Position numbers and translations under genes: made by a program
Notes under the pieces: generated by a model
Databases searched by the model: none
Told to the model about the DNA's origin: nothing
The model's input: the letters and a program-made list of their open reading frames with translations, nothing else
Shown here: positions 43,420-52,121 of the stretch, one piece after another
Numbering within the stretch: position 1 is the stretch's first letter
Layout: each line of letters begins with the position of its first letter
From: Massilia aquatica
GTDB lineage: Bacteria > Pseudomonadota > Gammaproteobacteria > Burkholderiales > Burkholderiaceae_D
Assembly: GCF_011682045.1 (NCBI RefSeq)
Contig: NZ_VVIW01000014.1
Location: 62,001 to 126,000, forward strand
Direction of reading: 5' to 3'
Length of the DNA: 64,000 nt

Positions 43420-43448
43420 TTGACATTTCTCAAACACCGCCCTAAGCT
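43420..43448 (+). promoter_or_regulatory. sigma-70-type promoter of the EF-G paralogue leader
   Basis: Consensus TTGACA (43420-43425), 17-bp spacer, TAAGCT (43443-43448). Initiation would fall near 43455, at or just before the ATG of the leader ORF, so the leader may be translated from a leaderless or nearly leaderless message. Confidence 0.6.
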
Positions 43449-43455
43449 TGCGGCC

Positions 43456-43530
43456 ATGAACTCAATGGACATCCTCTTTTTTACCTTCGCCCTTCCCGGC
43501 ACGTTGCCACAACGTCCCGGGCCGCGATAG
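43456..43530 (+). CDS. putative leader peptide (24 aa)
   Basis: Short ORF of 24 codons with the Phe-rich stretch 'ILFFTFALPGTLPQRPGPR'. It lies between a consensus promoter and a Rho-independent terminator and has no known protein product, which is the layout of an attenuator peptide. A perfect hairpin (43501-43515) sits in its last third, and GGGCC at 43519-43523 can pair with the left arm of the terminator, so ribosome position could decide termination. There is no obvious Shine-Dalgarno. Leader function is inferred. Confidence 0.5.
   Translation: MNSMDILFFTFALPGTLPQRPGPR
43501..43515 (+). promoter_or_regulatory. hairpin inside leader ORF
   Basis: ACGTTG-CCA-CAACGT, a perfect 6-bp stem with a 3-nt loop, immediately followed by CCCGGGCC, which can compete for the terminator stem at 43567-43587. 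It is part of the proposed attenuator upstream of the EF-G paralogue. Confidence 0.5.
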
Positions 43531-43566
43531 TGCGCCCTTGATTCGCTCGTAACGAGCACCCATCAC

Positions 43567-43595
43567 AAAGGCCCACTCCGGGCCTTTTTTGTTTT
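43567..43595 (+). terminator. Rho-independent terminator in leader (attenuator)
   Basis: Perfect 8-bp stem AAAGGCCC/GGGCCTTT with loop ACTCC (43575-43579), followed by T-rich sequence (43588-43595). It lies 36 nt after the leader ORF and about 170 nt before the EF-G paralogue start, so it would end transcription before the structural gene unless antitermination occurs. Confidence 0.85.
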
Positions 43596-43643
43596 TGCAA
43601 TTCCGCTTTTCCCACTTAATAGTTGCTTAGGAGCATATATATC

Positions 43644-43682
43644 ATGAAGTTTGCCGACGAAGAACGCGCGCGGGATCACTGA
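43644..43682 (+). CDS. second upstream short ORF (12 aa)
   Basis: ATG at 43644 preceded by TTAGGAG (spacing 10) encodes '[12 protein letters not shown]' and a stop. The Shine-Dalgarno is better than that of the EF-G paralogue itself. It could be a second regulatory uORF or the start of a decayed N-terminal extension. It is followed by a small hairpin, TTGTCT-CAA-AGACAA, at 43713-43727. Confidence 0.35.
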
Positions 43683-43712
43683 ACAAGGGTGGTCGCATGG
43701 CTCCCGCGGCGC

Positions 43713-43727
43713 TTGTCTCAAAGACAA
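43713..43727 (+). promoter_or_regulatory. hairpin upstream of EF-G paralogue start
   Basis: TTGTCT-CAA-AGACAA, a perfect 6-bp stem ending 35 nt before the preferred ATG at 43763. It may affect translation initiation or mark the end of the leader. Confidence 0.4.
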
Positions 43728-43762
43728 TTAACGACCGCCCGCTATGTTTAGAAAGCACCATC

Positions 43763-45805
43763 ATGACTGCGACAGTCCTTCGCGCCAACTCGCGCAACTT
43801 CGGTATCATTGCCCACATCGACGCTGGCAAAACCACCCTGTCCGAACGCATCCTCCTGAAAACCGGCGAAATCCACCGCTCCGGCGAAGTCCATGAGGGC
43901 ACCGCCACCATGGACAGCATGGACCTGGAAAAAGAACGCGGCATCACCATTGGCGCGGCCGCCACCCGCGTCTCGTGGAACGAGCACGCCTTCACCCTGA
44001 TCGACACCCCCGGCCACATCGACTTCGCCATCGAAGTCGAACGTTCGCTGCGCGTGCTCGATGGCGCCGTGACGGTGCTGTGCGGCGTGGCCGGCATCCA
44101 GCCCCAGACCGAAACCGTCTGGCGCCAGGCGCAAAAGCACGGCGTGCCGACCATCGTGTTCGTCAACAAGATGGACCGCGCCGGCGCCGATTTTACCCGC
44201 GTGGTGGGTCAGATCGCCTCGCGCCTGAACGCCCTGGCCGTGCCTTTGACCATTCCGGTCGGCGCCGGCGACGCCTTCGAGGGCGTCATCGACGTGCTCG
44301 GCCAGCGTTTCCTGGCGTGGAATCCGGCCGGGCTGATGAGCGCGGCCGCCCTGCCCGCGCAGCTGCAAGCACAGGCGGGGGCCGCCTACGCCCACGCCGC
44401 CGCGGTGGCGGCCGATGCCAGCGACGCGCTCACGCTCGCCTTCTTGGCCGACGACACGCTGTCGCCGGCGGATGTGCGTGCCGGGCTGCGCGCCATGACC
44501 CTGGCGCGCCGCGCGGTGCCGGTGCTGGCCGGTTCGGCCTACCGCAACGCCGGCATCGAGCCGCTGCTCGACGCTGTCGTCGACTGGCTGCCTTCGCCGG
44601 ACGAGCGCGCCCCTCCCATGGCGCGCCTGGACGACGCCAAGGTGACGGTCGGCACCGGCGACGCCGACCCGCTGGCGGCGCTGGTGTTCAAGGTGGTGCA
44701 TGACGAGCACGGCTCGCTGTCGTATGTGCGGCTGTACGGCGGCACCCTGCGCGAAGGCGACCTGGTGTGGAATGCGTCGCTCGGCGCCAGCGTGCGCGTC
44801 GGTCGCCTGTATGTGATCCATGCGGACCGCCGCACCGGCGTGGCCGAGGCCCGGGCGGGCAGCATCATTGCCATCGCCGGCCTGAAAGAGGCGCTCACCG
44901 GGCATACCCTCTCGACCAGGGCGGTGCCGCTGGTGCTCGAAACCATCCACGCCGGCGAACCGGTGGTGGCGCTGGCGATCGAGCCAGGCAAAGGTGGCGA
45001 GCGTGGCAAGATGCTGGCCGCGTTGGATCGCTTCCGGCGCGAGGATCCGTCCCTGCGCCTGGAAAGCGATCCGCTCAGCGGCGAAACGGTGCTGTGGGGC
45101 ATGGGCGAGCTGCATCTGGAAGTGGTGCTGGAACGTGTGCGCCGTGAAACCGGCGTGGAAGTGACGGTCGGTGCGCCCCAGGTTGCCTACCGCGAAACCA
45201 TTGCCGGACCGGCGGTGGAACTGGAAGGCAAAGTGTCGAAGCAAAACGGCGGCAGCGGGCAGTATGCAAGAGTCGTGTTGCGGGTGGAGCCGTTCGAGGG
45301 CGTGTTTGCGTTCGAGAATGCGATCAAGGGCGGCGTGGTGCCTGCGAATTTCATTCCGGCCATTGAAAAAGGCGTGCGGCATGCGCTGGCGCAAGGTCCT
45401 CTGGGCTACCCGGTCACGGGCGTCAAGGTGACCCTGCTCGATGGCGACTACCACACGGTCGACAGCAACGACATGGCGTTCATGGTCGCGGCCAAGGAAG
45501 GTACGCTGGCCGGGCTCAAGCGAGCGCATCCGCTGATGCTGGAACCCGTCATGACGGTGAGCGTCGACGCGCCGGCCGTGAATGCGGGCGACGTCATCGG
45601 CGACCTGCAGCGCCGTGGCGGCAAGGTGCTCGGCATCGAAGAGCAGACTGGCCGCGTGGAAGTCGTGGCCGACGTGCCGCTGGCCAGACTGTTCGGCCAC
45701 ACCACCAGTTTGCGCTCGCTCTCGCAAGGGCGCGCGTTCGCCAGCGCGGTGTATGCAAGGCACGCGCCGTGCATGCAGCAGCGCACCGAGGCGATGGCGG
45801 CGTAA
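43763..45805 (+). CDS. EF-G paralogue (translation factor GTPase)
   Basis: A 680-aa GTPase with all EF-G domains. G1 is 'AHIDAGKTT' (17-25), G2 'RGITI', G3 'DTPGH' (81-85), G4 'NKMD' (135-138); '[16 protein letters not shown]' is EF-G-like rather than Tet(M)-like. Domain IV (about 474-590) keeps both tip loops: '[14 protein letters not shown]' and '[11 protein letters not shown]' with the conserved His. Domain V ends '[15 protein letters not shown]'. No str-operon neighbours (rpsL, rpsG, tuf) are present, so this is probably not the housekeeping copy. The leader suggests regulated synthesis. The ATG at 43763 is chosen; an ATG at 43697 is in frame. Confidence 0.9.
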
Positions 45806-45826
45806 CGCTGTAGTCAGGTAGGTCGG

Positions 45827-45855
45827 GGCCGGAAAGCGATTTCCGGCCTTTTTTT
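45827..45855 (+). terminator. Rho-independent terminator after EF-G paralogue
   Basis: Perfect 9-bp stem GGCCGGAAA/TTTCCGGCC with a GNRA tetraloop (GCGA, 45836-45839) and seven T residues. It separates the EF-G paralogue from the two domain-IV-like genes, which must rely on read-through or their own promoter. Confidence 0.9.
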
Positions 45856-45881
45856 CAGGTGTTTCATGCCCGGAGATGAAA

Positions 45882-46316
45882 ATGGACATAGCCTTGGTAG
45901 CCAGCGGCGGACGTGGCGTCGGGCTGCACACCGGCGTCAGCGGGCGCGGCGTCTTCATTCGCCAGTCCGGCAGCCCCGGCAGGTATGGCGTCATTACGCT
46001 GGTACTTGAACCGGCGCCATCCCAGCATGGTTGCTCGCTCAGTTGGGAAGTGGCGGAAGACAAAATTCCAGTCATCTTTCTCGATGCGGTTATCGACGCC
46101 ATCACCCGCGTCCTTGCAGAGCAGGCCTTCGATGGCGACTATCTGAGCGGCTGCCGGATTCGCGTGGTCGACGGCGCATATAACCACGTCGATTCAGATG
46201 AGAATTCCTACCGGATGGCAAGCGCCCTCGCCATGCGCGAGGCCCTGAGTGCCGCAGGACTGTACCCGTGCGGCGCGTGCGGCACACCCCCGCTGACATA
46301 CGATTCAAGGAGTTAA
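45882..46316 (+). CDS. stand-alone EF-G domain IV-like protein, copy A
   Basis: A 144-aa protein whose whole length aligns by eye with EF-G domain IV, as in the upstream paralogue. 'FIRQSGSPGRYGVITLVLEP' matches '[18 protein letters not shown]', and 'CRIRVVDGAYNHVDSDENSY' matches '[20 protein letters not shown]'. Tip loop I (27-36) and tip loop II (97-106) are thus kept, though the tip His is replaced by Asn101. GTPase, domain III and domain V are absent. In EF-G this domain enters the decoding site. GGAG at 45872 supports the ATG at 45882. The C-terminus has an unmatched Cys-containing tail. Function is unknown. Confidence 0.72.
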   Translation: MDIALVASGGRGVGLHTGVSGRGVFIRQSGSPGRYGVITLVLEPAPSQHGCSLSWEVAEDKIPVIFLDAVIDAITRVLAEQAFDGDYLSGCRIRVVDGAYNHVDSDENSYRMASALAMREALSAAGLYPCGACGTPPLTYDSRS

Positions 46317-46318
46317 TG

Positions 46319-46726
46319 ATGGAAATTGCATTGGTAACAAGCGGTGGACGTGGCGTGGAGCTGCACGCGACGTGCACCGCCATGGGGGAGTACGTGCGCC
46401 AGAACGGACCGCCTGGCCGCTGCGGCGTGATCGAACTGATTCTCGAACCTGCCGAATCGGACTACGCGGCATGCACGCTGAGCTGGGAAGTGACGGAAGC
46501 ACAAATTCCCGTCCGCTTCCTCGACGCCGTCATCAGCAGCATCAAGCACGTGCTGGCGGAAGAGGCGTTCGACGGCGACTACCTGAGCGGCTGCCGCATT
46601 CGCGTGGTCGGCGGTGAGTATCATCAGACCGACTCCAAAGTCACCTGCTACCAGGTGGCCACCGTGTTGGCCATGCGCGATGCACTACGGTCCGCCGGAC
46701 TGTATCGGCCGCAAGCGCCCGAGTAA
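46319..46726 (+). CDS. stand-alone EF-G domain IV-like protein, copy B
   Basis: A 135-aa tandem paralogue of the preceding protein (same 'SGGRGV', 'EAFDGDYLSGCRIRVV' and C-terminal 'SAGLY' landmarks). Loop I reads 'RQNGPPGRCGVI'; loop II 'GGEYHQTDSKVT' retains the tip His (His102), unlike copy A. AAGGAG lies 6 nt before the ATG at 46319, and the start overlaps the region of the previous stop, so the pair is co-translated. Difference at the tip residue suggests the copies do different jobs or act as a heterodimer. It is followed by a promoter and a tRNA gene. Confidence 0.72.
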   Translation: MEIALVTSGGRGVELHATCTAMGEYVRQNGPPGRCGVIELILEPAESDYAACTLSWEVTEAQIPVRFLDAVISSIKHVLAEEAFDGDYLSGCRIRVVGGEYHQTDSKVTCYQVATVLAMRDALRSAGLYRPQAPE

Positions 46727-46752
46727 GCGTCACCCGCCCCGCCAAAAATAGA

Positions 46753-46781
46753 TTGAGCAATGTTACCAATACTGCTAAGGT
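46753..46781 (+). promoter_or_regulatory. putative promoter for tRNA and 790-aa gene
   Basis: TTGAGC (46753-46758), 17-bp spacer, TAAGGT (46776-46781). Transcription would start near 46788, just before a 9-bp hairpin and the tRNA. Confidence 0.45.
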
Positions 46782-46790
46782 AATCGCCTG

Positions 46791-46812
46791 AGCATTGATC
46801 TTCATCAATGCT
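46791..46812 (+). promoter_or_regulatory. 9-bp hairpin upstream of tRNA
   Basis: AGCATTGAT-CTTC-ATCAATGCT, perfect arms with a 4-nt loop, 30 nt before the tRNA 5' end. No U-tract follows, so it is unlikely to be a terminator. It may be an operator at the start site or a structured 5' part of the precursor. Confidence 0.55.
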
Positions 46813-46842
46813 GCTGGGCGCCGCGTCCATGCAAAGAACAAT

Positions 46843-46917
46843 TCCGGAATAGCTCAATGGCAGAGCACTTGGCTTGAGACTAAGTAGGTGCTGGTTCGAT
46901 TCCAGCTTCTGGACCCA
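46843..46917 (+). tRNA. non-canonical class I tRNA, anticodon UGA, CCA encoded
   Basis: All cloverleaf parts are present. Acceptor TCCGGAA/TTCTGGA (one G-U), T8-A9, D stem GCTC/GAGC with GG in the loop, anticodon stem CTTGG/CTAAG (one G-U), loop CTTGAGA giving UGA (46875-46877) with G37, 5-nt variable loop, T arm GCTGG-TTCGATT-CCAGC, discriminator C, encoded CCA. UGA would read the Ser codon UCA, but Ser tRNAs have a long variable arm and G73. The U1-A72 pair, G37 and C73 are also unusual. It may not take part in normal translation. It lies 23 nt before the 790-aa gene. Confidence 0.85.
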
Positions 46918-46940
46918 ACATCTCATTTCATTGGATACAC

Positions 46941-49313
46941 GTGGATAACGACGATACCGGCTGCAGCCGGATCCGCATTGCGCCCGGCTATGCGACCTTG
47001 CAACTGTCTGCCGCCTTGCGCACCGCGAGCGACCATCCCGACCCGCAAACACGCGCACGCGCCGCGCTCAAGGTCCAGCAATGGGAACAGATCATGGTGG
47101 GCATGTTCACGGGGGCGATCGCGGTCGGCTCGCGTACGCCGCTCGATGGCGCCCCGGCCTGGGTCACGCCCGAGGTCGCCAAGGGCGGTTTTGCGACCGG
47201 CGACTTGAAGGCCGGCGGCCCCCTGCAAGACCATGAACTGGCCACGCTCGCCGCAGCCGGCATGGCGCCCGCGCCCGACGCGCGCCGCTGGCTCAACGCG
47301 CGCCTGCTGACAGACGACGGACTGGCCAGCCTGTACACGCTGCTCGATTCGGGCTGCTATGAGATCAACGCGCCGGAAGAAGGCGCCTTGCTTGTCGTCG
47401 CCTGGCTTACCCGGCACCGCAAGCCTGAGCATGCGCGCGAACTGCTCGATGCGATCGTTCCATGGTTCGCGCACCTGCGCTTCTACCCGCTGCCCGCCGC
47501 GCAGCCGCGCCGCTTCGGCGAACGTGTGTTCCTCACGCCCGTGCGCGCGGTGGTGGACGCCATGCAAGAACGCCAGCGCAAGGTCAACCTGCGCATCCTG
47601 GCGCAGCGCGAGGCCGTGCGCGTGCGCCTGCCGCTGTACGACCGCGTCGTACAACTGTTCCTCGACAGCGTAGACGGCGCGCCACCGTCCATCAATATCG
47701 GCGCCGACGGCGCATGGCGCGACCCGGCAACCGGAAAATTCCGCATTGCCGGCGGCTGGCCGTGCCGCCGTTACCCTGCCCGATGGCGCGAACGCGGAGA
47801 GGCGCTGCTGCACGAATGGCAGCCACACGCCGCCACCGCGCGCAATGACGACAGCATGAAGGAACTGTTCGGCTACCTGCACCTGTGCGTTACGGAACCG
47901 GCCGCGCTGAACGGGCGCGATGTCGGCCGGATTCGCCTGATCCTGGGCCGCTACGTCAGCAAGCGTGGCTTGCCCGGATCGACGCGGCTGGCTGCGCTAC
48001 GCAGCGAACAGGCCAGGCAGGTTGCGGCCATGCCGTATCACTTGCTGGCCGGTGTGCTGGCTGAACGCTTGCGCGCCTTCCCGCAGAACGGCGGCCTGGA
48101 AGACACGGCGCCGCTCGGCGTAGCGGTCAGCGCCGCCGAGGCGGACAGCCTGGGCGAAGCCTCCGGCGCGCAGATCCCCGCAGTCTTGCTGGCCAAGCTT
48201 GATCGGTGCAGCATCGAGACCGTGACCGTGCTGGTCGAGCGCGGCGTTATTGCGTCAGCCGAAGTCCTGGCGGCGGTGCTGCCGCAGCTAAGCGCAGCCA
48301 TCAACGCTGCGGCGATTACGGAAGCATCGCTCAAGCAGCTTTACGGCGCCCTGTACCAGGCATTCCGGCGGCGCCGTTCGCTGCTGCTGCAAAACCTGCA
48401 AAGCCAGGTGCGCCTGGGCGAATTGCCGTGGGTTGCCGCCATCAACGCGCAGCGCGAGCAAGGCCTGGCCCCACGTACGGTGGCGCGCAGCACGCTCGAC
48501 GAATTGACCTTGCTGACACTGACCTCGTTCCCGCAGACGGCCATTCCCAACCCGCTGATTCAAGAACTGAACACCCTGGCCGGCAACGCGGGACTGGACC
48601 TGCCGCTGGTGGAGGAACTGGCGGCCGACATTTTCATGGGCATGTTCGCGCACAAGTTCACCAAGGTCGCGGCGCACGCCACCGCCATGCTCGACGGCAG
48701 TCTGTACAGCCGCTACTACGGCATTGGCGAACATGTGCGTGACCAGTTGCGCCAACTGGCGCAACAAGGCGAGGCAAAGATCCGAACCCCGGAGATCGAA
48801 AGCGGTCTGGCCGGCCTGTGCGAAACCCGCGCGGGTGTGCGCTGCGGCCTCGGTACCGTCATCAACAACGCCATGATTATCGAACAGCAGCAGATCCTCA
48901 CCACGCACAATCTGGCTGCCCTGGTTGCCAGGCTCGATCTGGACGGCCAATTGCAGCCCCACTACGAGCGCATGGCGCAGCAGTGCTTCGAATGGATTTG
49001 CCGCAACCAGCAGAACGCGCTCAACGCATGGCCGGGCGACCTGCGCGCCATCAGGAACGCGGCCTACGCGTGGCGCCAGATGGTATTTTTCCTGTCGATG
49101 GCCGACATGTCGTCGCACGACCGCTTCATCGCCTGGACCCGTGGGCACCTGGCGCAGGAGTCGCCACGGTTGCGGCAACGCCTTGCCCCTGCGCTGGCTG
49201 GACTGGAACTGGCCGCCGCCGGCCATGCGCTGGACGATGCCGCCAGCCGAGCCAGCGGCGCACGCAGGCTACTGGCGTACACCAGCGAGCAGCACTGGAT
49301 GGCAGTGGCGTAA
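46941..49313 (+). CDS. large conserved-looking protein of unknown function next to the tRNA
   Basis: A 790-aa, mostly helical, soluble protein with no signal peptide or membrane segment. Landmarks: 'VGSRTPLDGAPAWVTPEVAK', 'GGFATGDLKAGGPLQDHELA', 'WFAHLRFYPLPAAQP', 'ADIFMGMFAHKFTKVAAHAT', 'LDGSLYSRYYGI'. I remember similar sequences as uncharacterised proteins in several phyla but cannot name a domain; no nucleotide-binding or nuclease motif was seen. The GTG at 46941 has only a weak GGA upstream. Being 23 nt from the encoded CCA of the tRNA, it is probably on the same transcript. A role binding or using that tRNA is an inference. Confidence 0.8.
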   Translation: MDNDDTGCSRIRIAPGYATLQLSAALRTASDHPDPQTRARAALKVQQWEQIMVGMFTGAIAVGSRTPLDGAPAWVTPEVAKGGFATGDLKAGGPLQDHELATLAAAGMAPAPDARRWLNARLLTDDGLASLYTLLDSGCYEINAPEEGALLVVAWLTRHRKPEHARELLDAIVPWFAHLRFYPLPAAQPRRFGERVFLTPVRAVVDAMQERQRKVNLRILAQREAVRVRLPLYDRVVQLFLDSVDGAPPSINIGADGAWRDPATGKFRIAGGWPCRRYPARWRERGEALLHEWQPHAATARNDDSMKELFGYLHLCVTEPAALNGRDVGRIRLILGRYVSKRGLPGSTRLAALRSEQARQVAAMPYHLLAGVLAERLRAFPQNGGLEDTAPLGVAVSAAEADSLGEASGAQIPAVLLAKLDRCSIETVTVLVERGVIASAEVLAAVLPQLSAAINAAAITEASLKQLYGALYQAFRRRRSLLLQNLQSQVRLGELPWVAAINAQREQGLAPRTVARSTLDELTLLTLTSFPQTAIPNPLIQELNTLAGNAGLDLPLVEELAADIFMGMFAHKFTKVAAHATAMLDGSLYSRYYGIGEHVRDQLRQLAQQGEAKIRTPEIESGLAGLCETRAGVRCGLGTVINNAMIIEQQQILTTHNLAALVARLDLDGQLQPHYERMAQQCFEWICRNQQNALNAWPGDLRAIRNAAYAWRQMVFFLSMADMSSHDRFIAWTRGHLAQESPRLRQRLAPALAGLELAAAGHALDDAASRASGARRLLAYTSEQHWMAVA

Positions 49314-49316
49314 TAT

Positions 49317-49772
49317 TCAAGGCTGCCTGATTCGGGCCTTGACCACATCGATGCGTTCGAAAGCGTCGGGCGGCCAGTGCGGCTCGGTGTACCCGCGCGA
49401 CTGGAAATTGCGCACGAAACGCCAGAACGGCAGCAGCACCTGCGCGCGGCTGCCGCTCGTTTCGGCCACCGTGCGTACCCGCGCAGAGGTGCTGTCGCTG
49501 TCGGGGGCGAAGTCGATCCTGAAGTGCACCTGGTCGCCATCCGGCGTAAAGTACATGAAATACCCGTCCGGCTCCATGTGCCACCACACCCGCGACGGCG
49601 TGCCGTAGGTGGCCAGGTCGAGCGCGTCGAGCAGGTCGGCGACCGGGTTGTTGGGCACGTCCGAGGTGTCGATCTCCACCACCTGCGCGCCGACCGTCAG
49701 GGTCACGCCCATCCAGCCATGCCGGGGCGCCTCGCAAGTCATCCTGATGGCAAGCGTCGGTATGGCCGTCAT
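49317..49772 (-). CDS. hypothetical protein in RNA-repair operon
   Basis: A 151-aa protein: 'LAIRMTCEAPRHGWMGVTLT', 'IDTSDVPNNPVADLLDALDL', 'RVWWHMEPDGYFMYFTPDGD', 'VLLPFWRFVRNFQSRGYTEP'. Beta-rich with many aromatics; no known domain. Its ATG overlaps the HD-Pnk stop (ATGA), so it belongs to the ligase/HD-Pnk operon and may be a cofactor. Its 3' end stops 3 nt from the convergent 790-aa gene. Confidence 0.75.
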   Translation of the reverse strand: MTAIPTLAIRMTCEAPRHGWMGVTLTVGAQVVEIDTSDVPNNPVADLLDALDLATYGTPSRVWWHMEPDGYFMYFTPDGDQVHFRIDFAPDSDSTSARVRTVAETSGSRAQVLLPFWRFVRNFQSRGYTEPHWPPDAFERIDVVKARIRQP

Positions 49773-50914
49773 AAGTAACTCACCGCGTGCGCCTCGGTCG
49801 GCAGCGGCACCTCCCACTTGAACAGCATGCGCTCGATCGCCTTGTTGGGCAGGCTGGTGTCGCGCTGGTTGTTGCGCTTGAAGATGACCTGCGGCGGCTG
49901 TTCCAGGTACACCAGTTCGACCTCGGCATCGTAGGCATACAGCAGGTCGAGCGTCTTCTTGCGCATCTGCGCGCTCAGGTGCGTGGTGTTCCACACGAAC
50001 GGCGCTTTTTCGCGCAGCATCTCCTTGGCGAAATCGACCGCCCGGTGCGCCACCGCGCCTTCGTTGGCGCCATGGCGCAGCCCCAGTTCTTCGCGCGCGT
50101 CGTCGATCGACACCACCGGCAGGCGTGCCCGGTTGGCCGCCACCCAGTGGTTCTTGCCCGACGCCGGCAAGCCCGACATGACCGTCACGCGCGAGCCGGC
50201 GTTCTGGTGATGCACGAAGCCGGGCGCAATGCCGGCCCCGCGCATGTACGACAGGCGCGTGTGGGCATCGGCGAAGGCCTTGGGCGTGCCGTAGCAGTTT
50301 TCGTCGCGCGCCATCTCGCGAAACAGGGCGATGTCGACCAGGCAGTCGTCCTTCTTTTCATACGAGCGCCCTTCCATGTCGGCCTGCGCCATCGCCGACA
50401 ACAGGCGCAGGTCCAGTTCGTGCGACAGTTTGCGGATCAGGAATTCGGCCGACTGGCCGTTCTTGTTCCCGCCCAGCGCAAAAAACGGCAGCTGGTGCAC
50501 GGTGATGATGCGGCAAATGTGCTCGCGCAGCGCGAACGGCACGCCCGCGTGCCAGCACAGGATGCGCGCATCGATGGCCCCGCGCCTGGAGTGGCCCGGC
50601 TGGCCGATACGCCCGCTGTCCGGGTCGATCACGGTGGTGGCCGGCTTGGCGATATCGTGCAGCAGCGCCGCGTAGAACAGGATGAAGCGCTCCTCGTCGC
50701 TGCCGTCGACGTACTCGCCGCCGCGCATCAGCGCGTCGACCACCATGCGCGTGTGGATCCAGACGTCGCCTTCGGCGTGGTAGTACGGGTCCTGCGGCGT
50801 CGATGCCAGCAGCACCAGTTCGGGAATCGCATGCAGGAACCAGGCCCAGTCGGGCGCCTGGCCGGGCGCGGGCACGTGCGCGGCCATGGCTTTGTAAGTG
50901 AGTTTGTCCATCAT
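49769..50914 (-). CDS. HD-Pnk: HD phosphoesterase plus polynucleotide 5'-kinase
   Basis: A 381-aa two-domain RNA/DNA end-healing enzyme. The N-terminal HD domain has His54 ('VWIHTRMVVD'), His86-Asp87 ('LLHDIAKPATTV') and His130/His140 region ('EHICRIITVHQLPFF'). The C-terminal kinase has the P-loop 'SGLPASGKNHWV' (Lys254), 'PVVSIDDAREELG' and 'FVWNTTHLSAQMRKKTL'. The fusion matches Runella HD-Pnk, where HD removes 2',3'-phosphate and the kinase phosphorylates 5'-OH ends (established family knowledge). Its start overlaps the ligase stop (ATGA); AAGGAG precedes it. An ATG at 50911 is an alternative start. Confidence 0.9.
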   Translation of the reverse strand: MMDKLTYKAMAAHVPAPGQAPDWAWFLHAIPELVLLASTPQDPYYHAEGDVWIHTRMVVDALMRGGEYVDGSDEERFILFYAALLHDIAKPATTVIDPDSGRIGQPGHSRRGAIDARILCWHAGVPFALREHICRIITVHQLPFFALGGNKNGQSAEFLIRKLSHELDLRLLSAMAQADMEGRSYEKKDDCLVDIALFREMARDENCYGTPKAFADAHTRLSYMRGAGIAPGFVHHQNAGSRVTVMSGLPASGKNHWVAANRARLPVVSIDDAREELGLRHGANEGAVAHRAVDFAKEMLREKAPFVWNTTHLSAQMRKKTLDLLYAYDAEVELVYLEQPPQVIFKRNNQRDTSLPNKAIERMLFKWEVPLPTEAHAVSYL

Positions 50915-51807
50915 GCGGCTCCTTCGGTGACCAGGCCCAGGTCTTCCCATGCGGTTTCCCATGTGGTGCTCAGGCGCGGTGCGTAAATATCGACCCCGGG
51001 CGCCAGCTGGTTCGGCACGTAGGGCTGCTGCGAGTGGTGCATGTTCGAGTCCAGGATGGCCTGCACGAAGTCGCTGCGCACCCATTTGTAGCGCGCCGCG
51101 ACCACGCCGTCTTCCTCGACCTTGATGTACAGGCCTTCGGCCAGGTCGGACTTGTCGGCCTGGGTCCAGCATTTGGCCAGGTCCAGCCCTTCGCGTGCGA
51201 CCGTCGCTTCGAAGTCCTCGCGCCAGCGCGCGGTCTTGGCCAGCGAAAAGCGGATCAGCGCTTTCAGGTCGGCCAGCCGAGGCGGCGCGACGCCGGCGTA
51301 CAGCACCGGCACCGGCAGCACCGGCGCCTGGCCCAGCAAGGCGGCGCGCGCGGCCGTCGACAGGAATACCTGCTTGTCGCGGTCGTAGATATCGAACTCG
51401 CAGAACAGGTGAGGCAGGTGGTTGTAAAAGACGCTGTGCTTCTTGCCCATCCACTCGCCGTACATGACGTAGCGGTCGCCCAGGCGCTCGACCAGCGCGC
51501 TCTCGTGGGCGGCGGCCCAGCGCTTGAAGATGCTGAACTGGCGCTCGCGCCCACCGCCGGCCAGGTAATGGCCGCGGCTTTGCAGCAGCAGTTCGCCGCC
51601 TTCGGAAAAACTCAGGCCCGCATTGGCGCCGTCGAGTTTTTCTTCGACCACGATGGTGCGGCCGGCCAGCGAGGCGTACGCCGCGCGCGGGTCGTTGCGT
51701 TTGCTTGTTTTTGCGTAACCGTCGTCGCCCTGCTGCAGTTGCGAACCCTCCAGATGGCGGGTGGACGGGTATTTTTGTAATTCCAGGTTGTGGACGAAAT
51801 TCGTCAT
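50911..51807 (-). CDS. RNA ligase, Rnl2-like (ATP-dependent)
   Basis: A 298-aa nucleotidyltransferase-fold ligase. The nucleophile motif I is 'VVEEKLDGANAGLSF' (Lys57, K-x-D-G-x-N as in T4 Rnl2). Motif Ia is 'LQSRGHY', motif III 'YVMYGEWMGKKHSV', IIIa 'LFCEFDIYDR', IV 'EGLYIKVEEDG' (Glu224) and V 'RYKWVR' (Lys241). It should seal 3'-OH/5'-phosphate ends that HD-Pnk prepares. GGAG precedes the ATG at 51807. It is the first gene of a minus-strand operon ligase, HD-Pnk, small protein. No rtcR-type regulator is near. Confidence 0.9.
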   Translation of the reverse strand: MTNFVHNLELQKYPSTRHLEGSQLQQGDDGYAKTSKRNDPRAAYASLAGRTIVVEEKLDGANAGLSFSEGGELLLQSRGHYLAGGGRERQFSIFKRWAAAHESALVERLGDRYVMYGEWMGKKHSVFYNHLPHLFCEFDIYDRDKQVFLSTAARAALLGQAPVLPVPVLYAGVAPPRLADLKALIRFSLAKTARWREDFEATVAREGLDLAKCWTQADKSDLAEGLYIKVEEDGVVAARYKWVRSDFVQAILDSNMHHSQQPYVPNQLAPGVDIYAPRLSTTWETAWEDLGLVTEGAA

Positions 51808-52121
51808 GATGCGCTCCATGTTGTAGATGGGAGCCGACGACAAAGGGAGAACTACGCCACCACCGCAAGGGTCGTGGGAAAGCGGCATGCACAGCCTGCC
51901 GGGTGCTGGTTTTAGCTATTTTTAGCTACAGCGCGGGCAGGTCAATCCGATATCGTCAGCAGACAGGTTGGCTGTGGTCAGGCACGTCAGGTTCTCGATT
52001 CAGTAGTGAGTTTTCTTGCGAAGGCACGCAGTCTAACCCGCCTTTTGCAAAAATGTAAAGAATAATCTGAACACGCGGCGCCGGCCGTCGCGCAGGCGCG
52101 CAGCACCGGCGCCGCGCGTGC
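51808..52121. other. intergenic region upstream of RNA-repair operon
   Basis: This 314-bp gap has no supported gene. It holds a TAGCTA-TTTT-TAGCTA inverted repeat (51913-51928), about 105 bp upstream of the ligase ATG, with a TTGACC-like -35 element behind it on the minus strand. The AT-rich patch fits a promoter or operator for the repair operon. No convincing sigma-54 -24/-12 element was found. Confidence 0.5.

Follow-up and report, generated by a model that had tools for sequence, protein, structure and literature searches.

In the window analyzed here, a stretch of 64,000 nt from Massilia aquatica (contig NZ_VVIW01000014.1, positions 62,001 to 126,000 of the forward strand), a gene for a 790-residue protein, which we call P790, is preceded by an unusual tRNA-like element. 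A preliminary description of this DNA had placed both in an 8.5-kb island concerned with translation stress and RNA repair; judged from sequence comparison, what is conserved as a unit is not the island but the unusual tRNA with P790. We tentatively propose that the two form a dedicated ribonucleoprotein (RNP), in which the tRNA mimic, held by P790, would bait or divert ribotoxins that cut anticodons, in association with RNA repair.

P790 was found at 22 distinct loci, 16 of them proteobacterial and 6 on actinobacterial plasmids, with 33–88% identity to the protein of the window. At every one of these loci (22/22, in two phyla) the tRNA-like element lies directly upstream on the same strand, reading in the same direction and separated from P790 by anything from a few bases to roughly a hundred; the link between the tRNA and the 790-residue protein noted in the preliminary description is thereby borne out. 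The element was detected by ARAGORN at 19 loci and by the Rfam family RF00005 at L034 (55.1 bits), L038 (52.2 bits), and L039 (50.7 bits). In the window it forms a full cloverleaf with the loop CTTGAGA, a C at position 73, and an encoded CCA. The preliminary description had called it non-canonical; with 75 nt and no long variable arm it is so for serine, and the same genome also has a normal 90-nt tRNA-Ser(UGA). The window element matches neither of the Y RNA families YrlA and YrlB (RF02553 and RF02565), its match being to RF00005 instead (Table 1). Over 24 distinct elements, the 21 pairs of the cloverleaf are standard pairs in 99.4% of 504 cells, and the stems are kept by covariation, which reached 0.572 as compared to 0.207 in shuffles (0/500 as high) and 0.04–0.17 in slid controls; 12 of the 21 pairs are changed on both sides, with 9.9 in shuffles (8/500 as high). 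An encoded CCA is present in several proteobacterial elements. The actinobacterial elements lack it, as well as a canonical T loop, and end 2–14 nt ahead of the nearest downstream in-frame start codon; in the window, P790 starts with GTG, 27 nt past the end of the 7-bp acceptor stem of the element. Two simple explanations of the arrangement were excluded: chance adjacency of element and P790, by the 22/22 linkage, and a genuine tRNA gene serving as an integration site, as the element travels with P790 and that of the window reaches no more than 71% identity to any of 55 distinct tRNA sequences called by ARAGORN where this genome has its other tRNA matches. At one locus an 879-residue open reading frame (ORF) with no Pfam family (L029:11193-13832), on the strand of P790, overlaps the element and the start of P790, and is possibly a chance ORF.

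The anticodon loop of the element is among its least constant parts. Among 25 elements there are 17 distinct anticodon loops, five of which elements have loops of 6 nt; C32 and U33 are constant (25/25), and position 34 is a pyrimidine in 23. Decoding tRNAs would have one anticodon per orthologous gene and a 7-nt loop, which is not what the set of elements has. Arg anticodons (CCG, UCU, UCG) occur in 11 of the 25, which is compatible with the bait idea but proves nothing. Column entropy over the 17 proteobacterial elements is highest at loop positions 34–37 (1.4–1.9 bits), followed by positions of the D loop and variable loop; in the eight actinobacterial elements, D- and T-loop positions vary as much as the anticodon loop or more. 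When pairwise distances were compared over all 22 loci, P790 distance was correlated with the distance of the element body (Spearman 0.66, p 0.0005, a value that partly reflects the split between the phyla) and not with that of the loop (0.02, p 0.40); within the 16 proteobacterial loci the correlation of body and protein was 0.42 (p 0.0005). Tandem elements with different loops occur at 2 of the 22 loci. At L011 the pair differs at 4 of 7 loop positions, as compared to 5 of 225 others (Fisher 3.6e-5), and each copy precedes a P790 start, one of the two P790 genes being a fragment; L036 has three tandem elements. The element at L131:11383-11453, with the loop CTTCAGA and the anticodon UCA (stop), is called tRNA-SeC by ARAGORN despite having the ordinary size of a P790 element.

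The protein half of the pair is about 690–820 residues long across its members and contains invariant blocks (for example, GGFAT and AYAWRQ in alignment A4); no histidine is found in the invariant columns of 18 members. P790 of the window has no match in Pfam, NCBIfam, PHROGs, or PADLOC, and a Pfam scan of 18 of the 22 members gave nothing better than E 0.1. Nuclease or ABC domains of the PrrC/RloC type were likewise not matched by P790 in Pfam, NCBIfam, or PADLOC. The TROVE domain was not matched in 18 of the 22 members scanned at E up to 1, and hhalign of A4 against three Rsr sequences returned a probability of 0.2% and E 0.37. A sequence search of the PDB with P790 profile A2 identified a single match (E 0.1), and the AlphaFold model calculated from three sequences, mostly helix, has a mean predicted local distance difference test score (pLDDT) of 42.6 and is unusable.

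P790 is rare and patchy in distribution. It is present in 6 of 17 genomes of its own genus and in 12 of 294 family genomes, counted as 11 because the match in G011 is weak and partial (E 3.9e-4) and was left out of the locus count; L008 and L009, which repeat G007 and G005, were counted once. The genomes of the class (2/369) and of the phylum (2/398) yielded its own genome and G660 in both cases, and the order of G660 only G660 itself (1/250). Three further genera gave 3/43, 1/62, and 4/74, already known loci included. The actinobacterial loci come from plasmid records, of which 6 in 72,556 carry P790, every one actinobacterial. No match was found in 50,697 phage records, and a pattern scan of IMG/VR confirmed no P790.

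In another genus the pair is embedded in an RNA repair operon. At all three of its loci (3/3) the genes are arranged in the row Ro60, RtcB, RtcA, tRNA-like element, P790, and RtcB, with RtcR divergent from them, such that an rtcBA operon in the sense of RtcR divergent from an rtcB–rtcA set is found at 3 of the 22 loci, with the pair between rtcA and a second rtcB. The domains identified are PF06956 for RtcR (L028), PF01139 for RtcB and PF01137 (RTC) for RtcA (L027 and L028), with L129 assigned by similarity; the Ro60-type gene has vWA_Ro60 and weak TROVE matches (L027 and L028). YrlA-like Y RNA matches are present in the rows of L027 and L028, the two scanned, away from the element, with the best at 51–63 bits, under the gathering score of 69. 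When L027 is compared with L028, identity is 96% for Rsr, 95% for RtcB, 94% for RtcA, 91% for RtcR, and 95% for the second RtcB; it is 82% for the zinc-finger protein and 51% for P790, and the loop of the element differs as well. On this comparison, the element–P790 pair has diverged fast or was replaced inside a conserved repair row. The rtc genes were not found at the six loci of the Massilia aquatica genus, and queries with Ro60 and rtc proteins gave no match in the stretches taken around the 19 P790 loci other than these three. The placements beside HD-Pnk and ligase in one genus and beside RtcB and RtcA in the other are independent, and the end-sealing systems to which they tie the pair are unrelated. 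The theme of tRNA cleavage and repair put forward in the preliminary description is sensible because P790 is tied to RNA repair this second, independent time, in a Ro60–RtcBA operon; the link to HD-Pnk and ligase is bound to the genus. Further members of the rtc row are DUF6847 and zf_Tbcl proteins (L027:10505-10960; L027:13853-14230; L028:5632-6009), DUF6847 being found, among the loci compared, in L027 only.

In the RNP that we propose, P790 would bind the mimic by its constant body (acceptor stem with D and T arms), presenting the anticodon arm as a bait or decoy to ribotoxins, namely anticodon nucleases. A cut or titrated bait would spare cellular tRNAs or signal damage, repair enzymes (Rnl and HD-Pnk in this genus, RtcB/RtcA in another) would reseal the cut RNA, and the anticodon of the bait would be swapped from lineage to lineage in step with the nuclease that poses the threat. 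We infer RNA–protein binding, the bait role, anticodon nucleases as the opponent, and the action of repair on the bait from the sequence patterns described above. That the pair amounts to an immunity by bait tRNAs, with a non-translating mimic, a loop that serves as a swappable cassette matched to the ribotoxin of each lineage, and the repair enzymes as partners, seems to us rather doubtful; it would be a defence able to switch specificity, its variable part being an anticodon. The accessible part of the paper by Hughes et al. (PMC7790460) reports that tRNA fragments activate operons of the rsr–yrl–rtcBA type and suggests that YrlA, through its tRNA-like part, may be a competitive inhibitor of an anticodon nuclease; as to possible opponents, colicin D cleaves tRNA-Arg loops, and E5 cleaves Tyr, His, Asn, and Asp tRNAs (accessible part of PMC9223846).

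Several observations weigh against a bait. Repair genes adjoin P790 at only 8 of the 22 loci, with those of a ninth ~10.6 kb away, and no queried repair protein was found within ~5–10 kb on each side at the other 13, six of which are on plasmids. P790 is in none of the defence families tested with PADLOC, which also gave one weak match among eight neighbor proteins of P790 loci. Variability is not exclusive to the anticodon loop, D-loop and variable-loop positions varying as well; the loop does not change fast, because close relatives share theirs; and further pair types in the stems show no excess (28 as compared to 26.9 in shuffles). The phylum split that contributes to the whole-set correlation of body and protein counts here too, as does the weak correlation of loop and protein distances within the 16 proteobacterial loci (0.21, p 0.038); in the six actinobacterial loci neither correlation is positive (body and protein, −0.09, p 0.61). 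For related systems, the accessible parts of two papers state that YrlA itself was not cut in the Salmonella case (PMC7790460) and that E. coli RtcB2–PrfH gave no protection from the tRNA-cutting toxins tested (PMC9223846).

We consider it unlikely that the pair is instead a chaperone or RNA-processing RNP resembling Ro60 and its Y RNA, with the mimic acting as a gate or tether for damaged or misfolded RNA and an anticodon loop that may vary through contact with variable partners or with none. In three genomes the pair does share an operon with a Ro60-type gene, together with YrlA-like RNAs in the two scanned, and YrlA has a tRNA-like domain according to the accessible part of PMC7790460; an element with a constrained body and a less constrained loop would also suit such a role. 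P790, however, is no TROVE protein by the scan of 18 members and by hhalign, the element matches tRNA rather than YrlA or YrlB, the operon already holds a Ro60 gene and Y RNA-like matches, and the constancy of C32 and U33 implies that the loop does not drift entirely freely. Quite unlikely, in our view, is a pair like a toxin and its antitoxin, in which P790 would be the toxin, such as an enzyme directed at tRNA, and would be restrained by a mimic whose loop mirrors the toxin's target. An RNA gene just ahead of a protein gene, tandem RNA copies at two loci, the patchy distribution, the plasmid locations, and the divergence of P790 could all be read in this way, but proteins of this length matching no toxin or nuclease family, invariant columns free of histidine, and tandem RNA at no more than 2 of 22 loci speak against it.

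That the element is aminoacylated and P790 is an enzyme using the aminoacyl group, with the anticodon setting the amino acid, we regard as improbable. The full cloverleaf and the CCA encoded in several proteobacterial copies would fit, and many of the anticodons belong to amino acids whose synthetases read the anticodon; on the other side stand the C73 of this genus, which by the identity rules is unusual for the amino acids implied, the absence of CCA and of a canonical T loop from the actinobacterial elements, and the five elements among 25 whose loop has 6 nt. We also give little credence to a leader acting in cis, an RNA without independent life whose processing as a tRNA would set the 5′ end and the translation of the P790 mRNA. 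It draws on the actinobacterial elements, for which 3′ processing would give an almost leaderless mRNA because they stop 2–14 nt before the start codon, and leaves the variable loop, the tandem copies, and the correlation of body and protein without explanation.

Among known systems, one close to the P790 unit is that of Ro60 (Rsr) and Y RNA, in which a tRNA-mimicking RNA is likewise encoded beside a dedicated protein and which shares the RtcR-type operon in three genomes. P790 differs in having no TROVE or vWA match, in its element being a full cloverleaf with a changing anticodon, and in being present in addition to the Ro60 gene and YrlA-like matches of the rtc row. In type III toxin–antitoxin systems, one or more RNA elements lie just upstream of the protein gene, as in the P790 unit; the RNA of P790 is a tRNA cloverleaf, in contrast, and the copies are in tandem at just two loci. 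The healing and sealing pair of HD-Pnk and RNA ligase is found beside P790 in 5 of 6 same-genus loci, but this is lineage-specific. Extra tRNAs of phages that evade tRNA-cutting immunity (retron, PARIS) likewise counter anticodon nucleases, as described in the accessible parts of PMC11555353 and PMC12409363, whereas the element of P790 resides in cells or on plasmids, departs from canonical tRNAs, and goes with a single protein. Neither half of the pair falls in a family tested here, apart from the tRNA structure of the RNA, and the pair would thus appear to be new in kind; no description of such a pair was found in the titles and abstract openings of a literature that included RNA repair and bacterial Y RNAs in part. 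An RNA shaped like a tRNA, with its decoding triplet among its least conserved parts, and fixed to one protein across two phyla, fits no tRNA role known to us. If the element is a bait, anticodon nucleases would have driven a matching bacterial counter-system, the nucleases that matter could be read from the loops as from a natural record, and the Ro60–Y RNA–RtcBA repair operons would gain a new member; the roles of Ro60 and Y RNA in RtcBA operons were left open by Hughes et al. in the accessible part of PMC7790460.

Table 1 Features of the locus in the window (positions in the 64,000-nt stretch; aa, amino acids).
Feature	Position	Strand	Assignment and remarks
Leader ORF and terminator-like hairpin	43456..43587	+	Upstream of EF-G paralogue; ORF 43456-43530 (24 codons), hairpin 43567-43587
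EF-G paralogue ORF	43697-45805	+	TIGR00484, 759 bits; likelier start is Met at 43763
EF-G domain-IV-only protein a	45876-46316	+	Pfam EFG_IV, 46.7 bits; confined to same genus
EF-G domain-IV-only protein b	46319-46726	+	Pfam EFG_IV, 33.1 bits; confined to same genus
tRNA-like element	46843-46917	+	ARAGORN anticodon UGA; Rfam RF00005, 63.9 bits; RNA half of the conserved unit
P790 (790-aa protein)	46941-49313	+	Protein half of the conserved unit
151-aa ORF	49317-49772	-	Tail to tail with P790; no significant Pfam match
HD-Pnk	49769-50911	-	PF01966 (HD) and PF13671 (AAA_33) P-loop; HD phosphohydrolase and P-loop kinase, end healing
ATP-dependent RNA ligase	50911-51888	-	PF09414, 119 bits; end sealing

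All the parts listed in the preliminary description (the paralogue of elongation factor G (EF-G), the domain-IV pair, the tRNA, the 790-residue protein, ligase, HD-Pnk, and a small ORF) are present where it placed them (Table 1). The co-occurrence in distant genomes by which it proposed to check the island holds for the tRNA with P790 and fails for most of the rest: beyond their own genus, searches around P790 did not find the EF-G paralogue, the domain-IV proteins, HD-Pnk, or ligase, the lone exception being a partial GTPase match of 25% identity ~6 kb from P790 in L040. The EF-G paralogue has the EF-G domain set and GTPase motifs (G2–G4 by script; G1, by eye, AHIDAGKT) and scores above the TIGR00484 cut-off. 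G016, of the same genus, retains this paralogue, ligase, and HD-Pnk, their order unchanged, with no P790, tRNA, or domain-IV protein between them; the EF-G-related parts, which had been assigned to a shared system, look like neighbors. Between the EF-G paralogue and HD-Pnk of G016 lies an acidic ORF of 620 residues (L117:12192-14054) with the letters HAE...PCATC and no Pfam match, which we take to be deaminase-like. G003 has P790, the tRNA, and the 151-residue protein, with ligase and HD-Pnk ~10.6 kb away and no domain-IV protein. The 151-residue protein accompanies P790 at 4 of 6 same-genus loci, even where HD-Pnk and ligase are ~10 kb distant, and was not found at the other P790 loci searched.

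A regular link of P790 to HD-Pnk and ligase is not seen, their adjacency being limited to the genus. Full-length HD-Pnk is present in 31 of 294 family genomes, 7 with and 24 without P790, and the 24 mark HD-Pnk as a gene separate from the pair. Left out of the count were HD matches with E values between 1e-6 and 1e-3 and a partial, broken match in G012. Expressed the other way, HD-Pnk is enriched among the genomes with P790, occurring in 7 of the 11 in the family as compared to 24 of the 283 without, but the 11 are clustered relatives, and the remaining 4 of the 11 have no HD-Pnk match. Across same-genus loci, P790 (66–88% identity) is less well conserved than EF-G (92–98%) and HD-Pnk (93–97%), and similar in this respect to a neighboring beta-helix protein (76–88%). 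In each of 21 HD-Pnk sequences inspected, the P-loop of the kinase is GLPASGKN and so departs from GK[ST].

The leader peptide upstream of the EF-G paralogue begins with MNSMDILFFTFA and contains QRPGPR at all same-genus loci (7/7), one of which lacks P790; three of the loci have a frame shift in the middle of the peptide and an extension at its end, and QRPGPR still returns. Together with the hairpin that follows, it is probably a translation-sensing attenuator, and the term "attenuated" that had been applied to this EF-G stands if an attenuator was meant. Another terminator-like hairpin, of 11 pairs (45825-45850), lies between the EF-G paralogue and the genes behind it; terminator-like hairpins are not enriched in this stretch (7, as compared to 7.4 in shuffles). 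Upstream of the tRNA-like element is a perfect 9-bp hairpin (AGCATTGAT/ATCAATGCT) at 46791-46812; in L012, inspected by eye, one of its pairs carries changes on both sides and another no longer pairs. L078 (G000 C13:105520-106769) contains ten tRNA matches in 1.25 kb, several of them low-scoring, and looks like an extra tRNA array.

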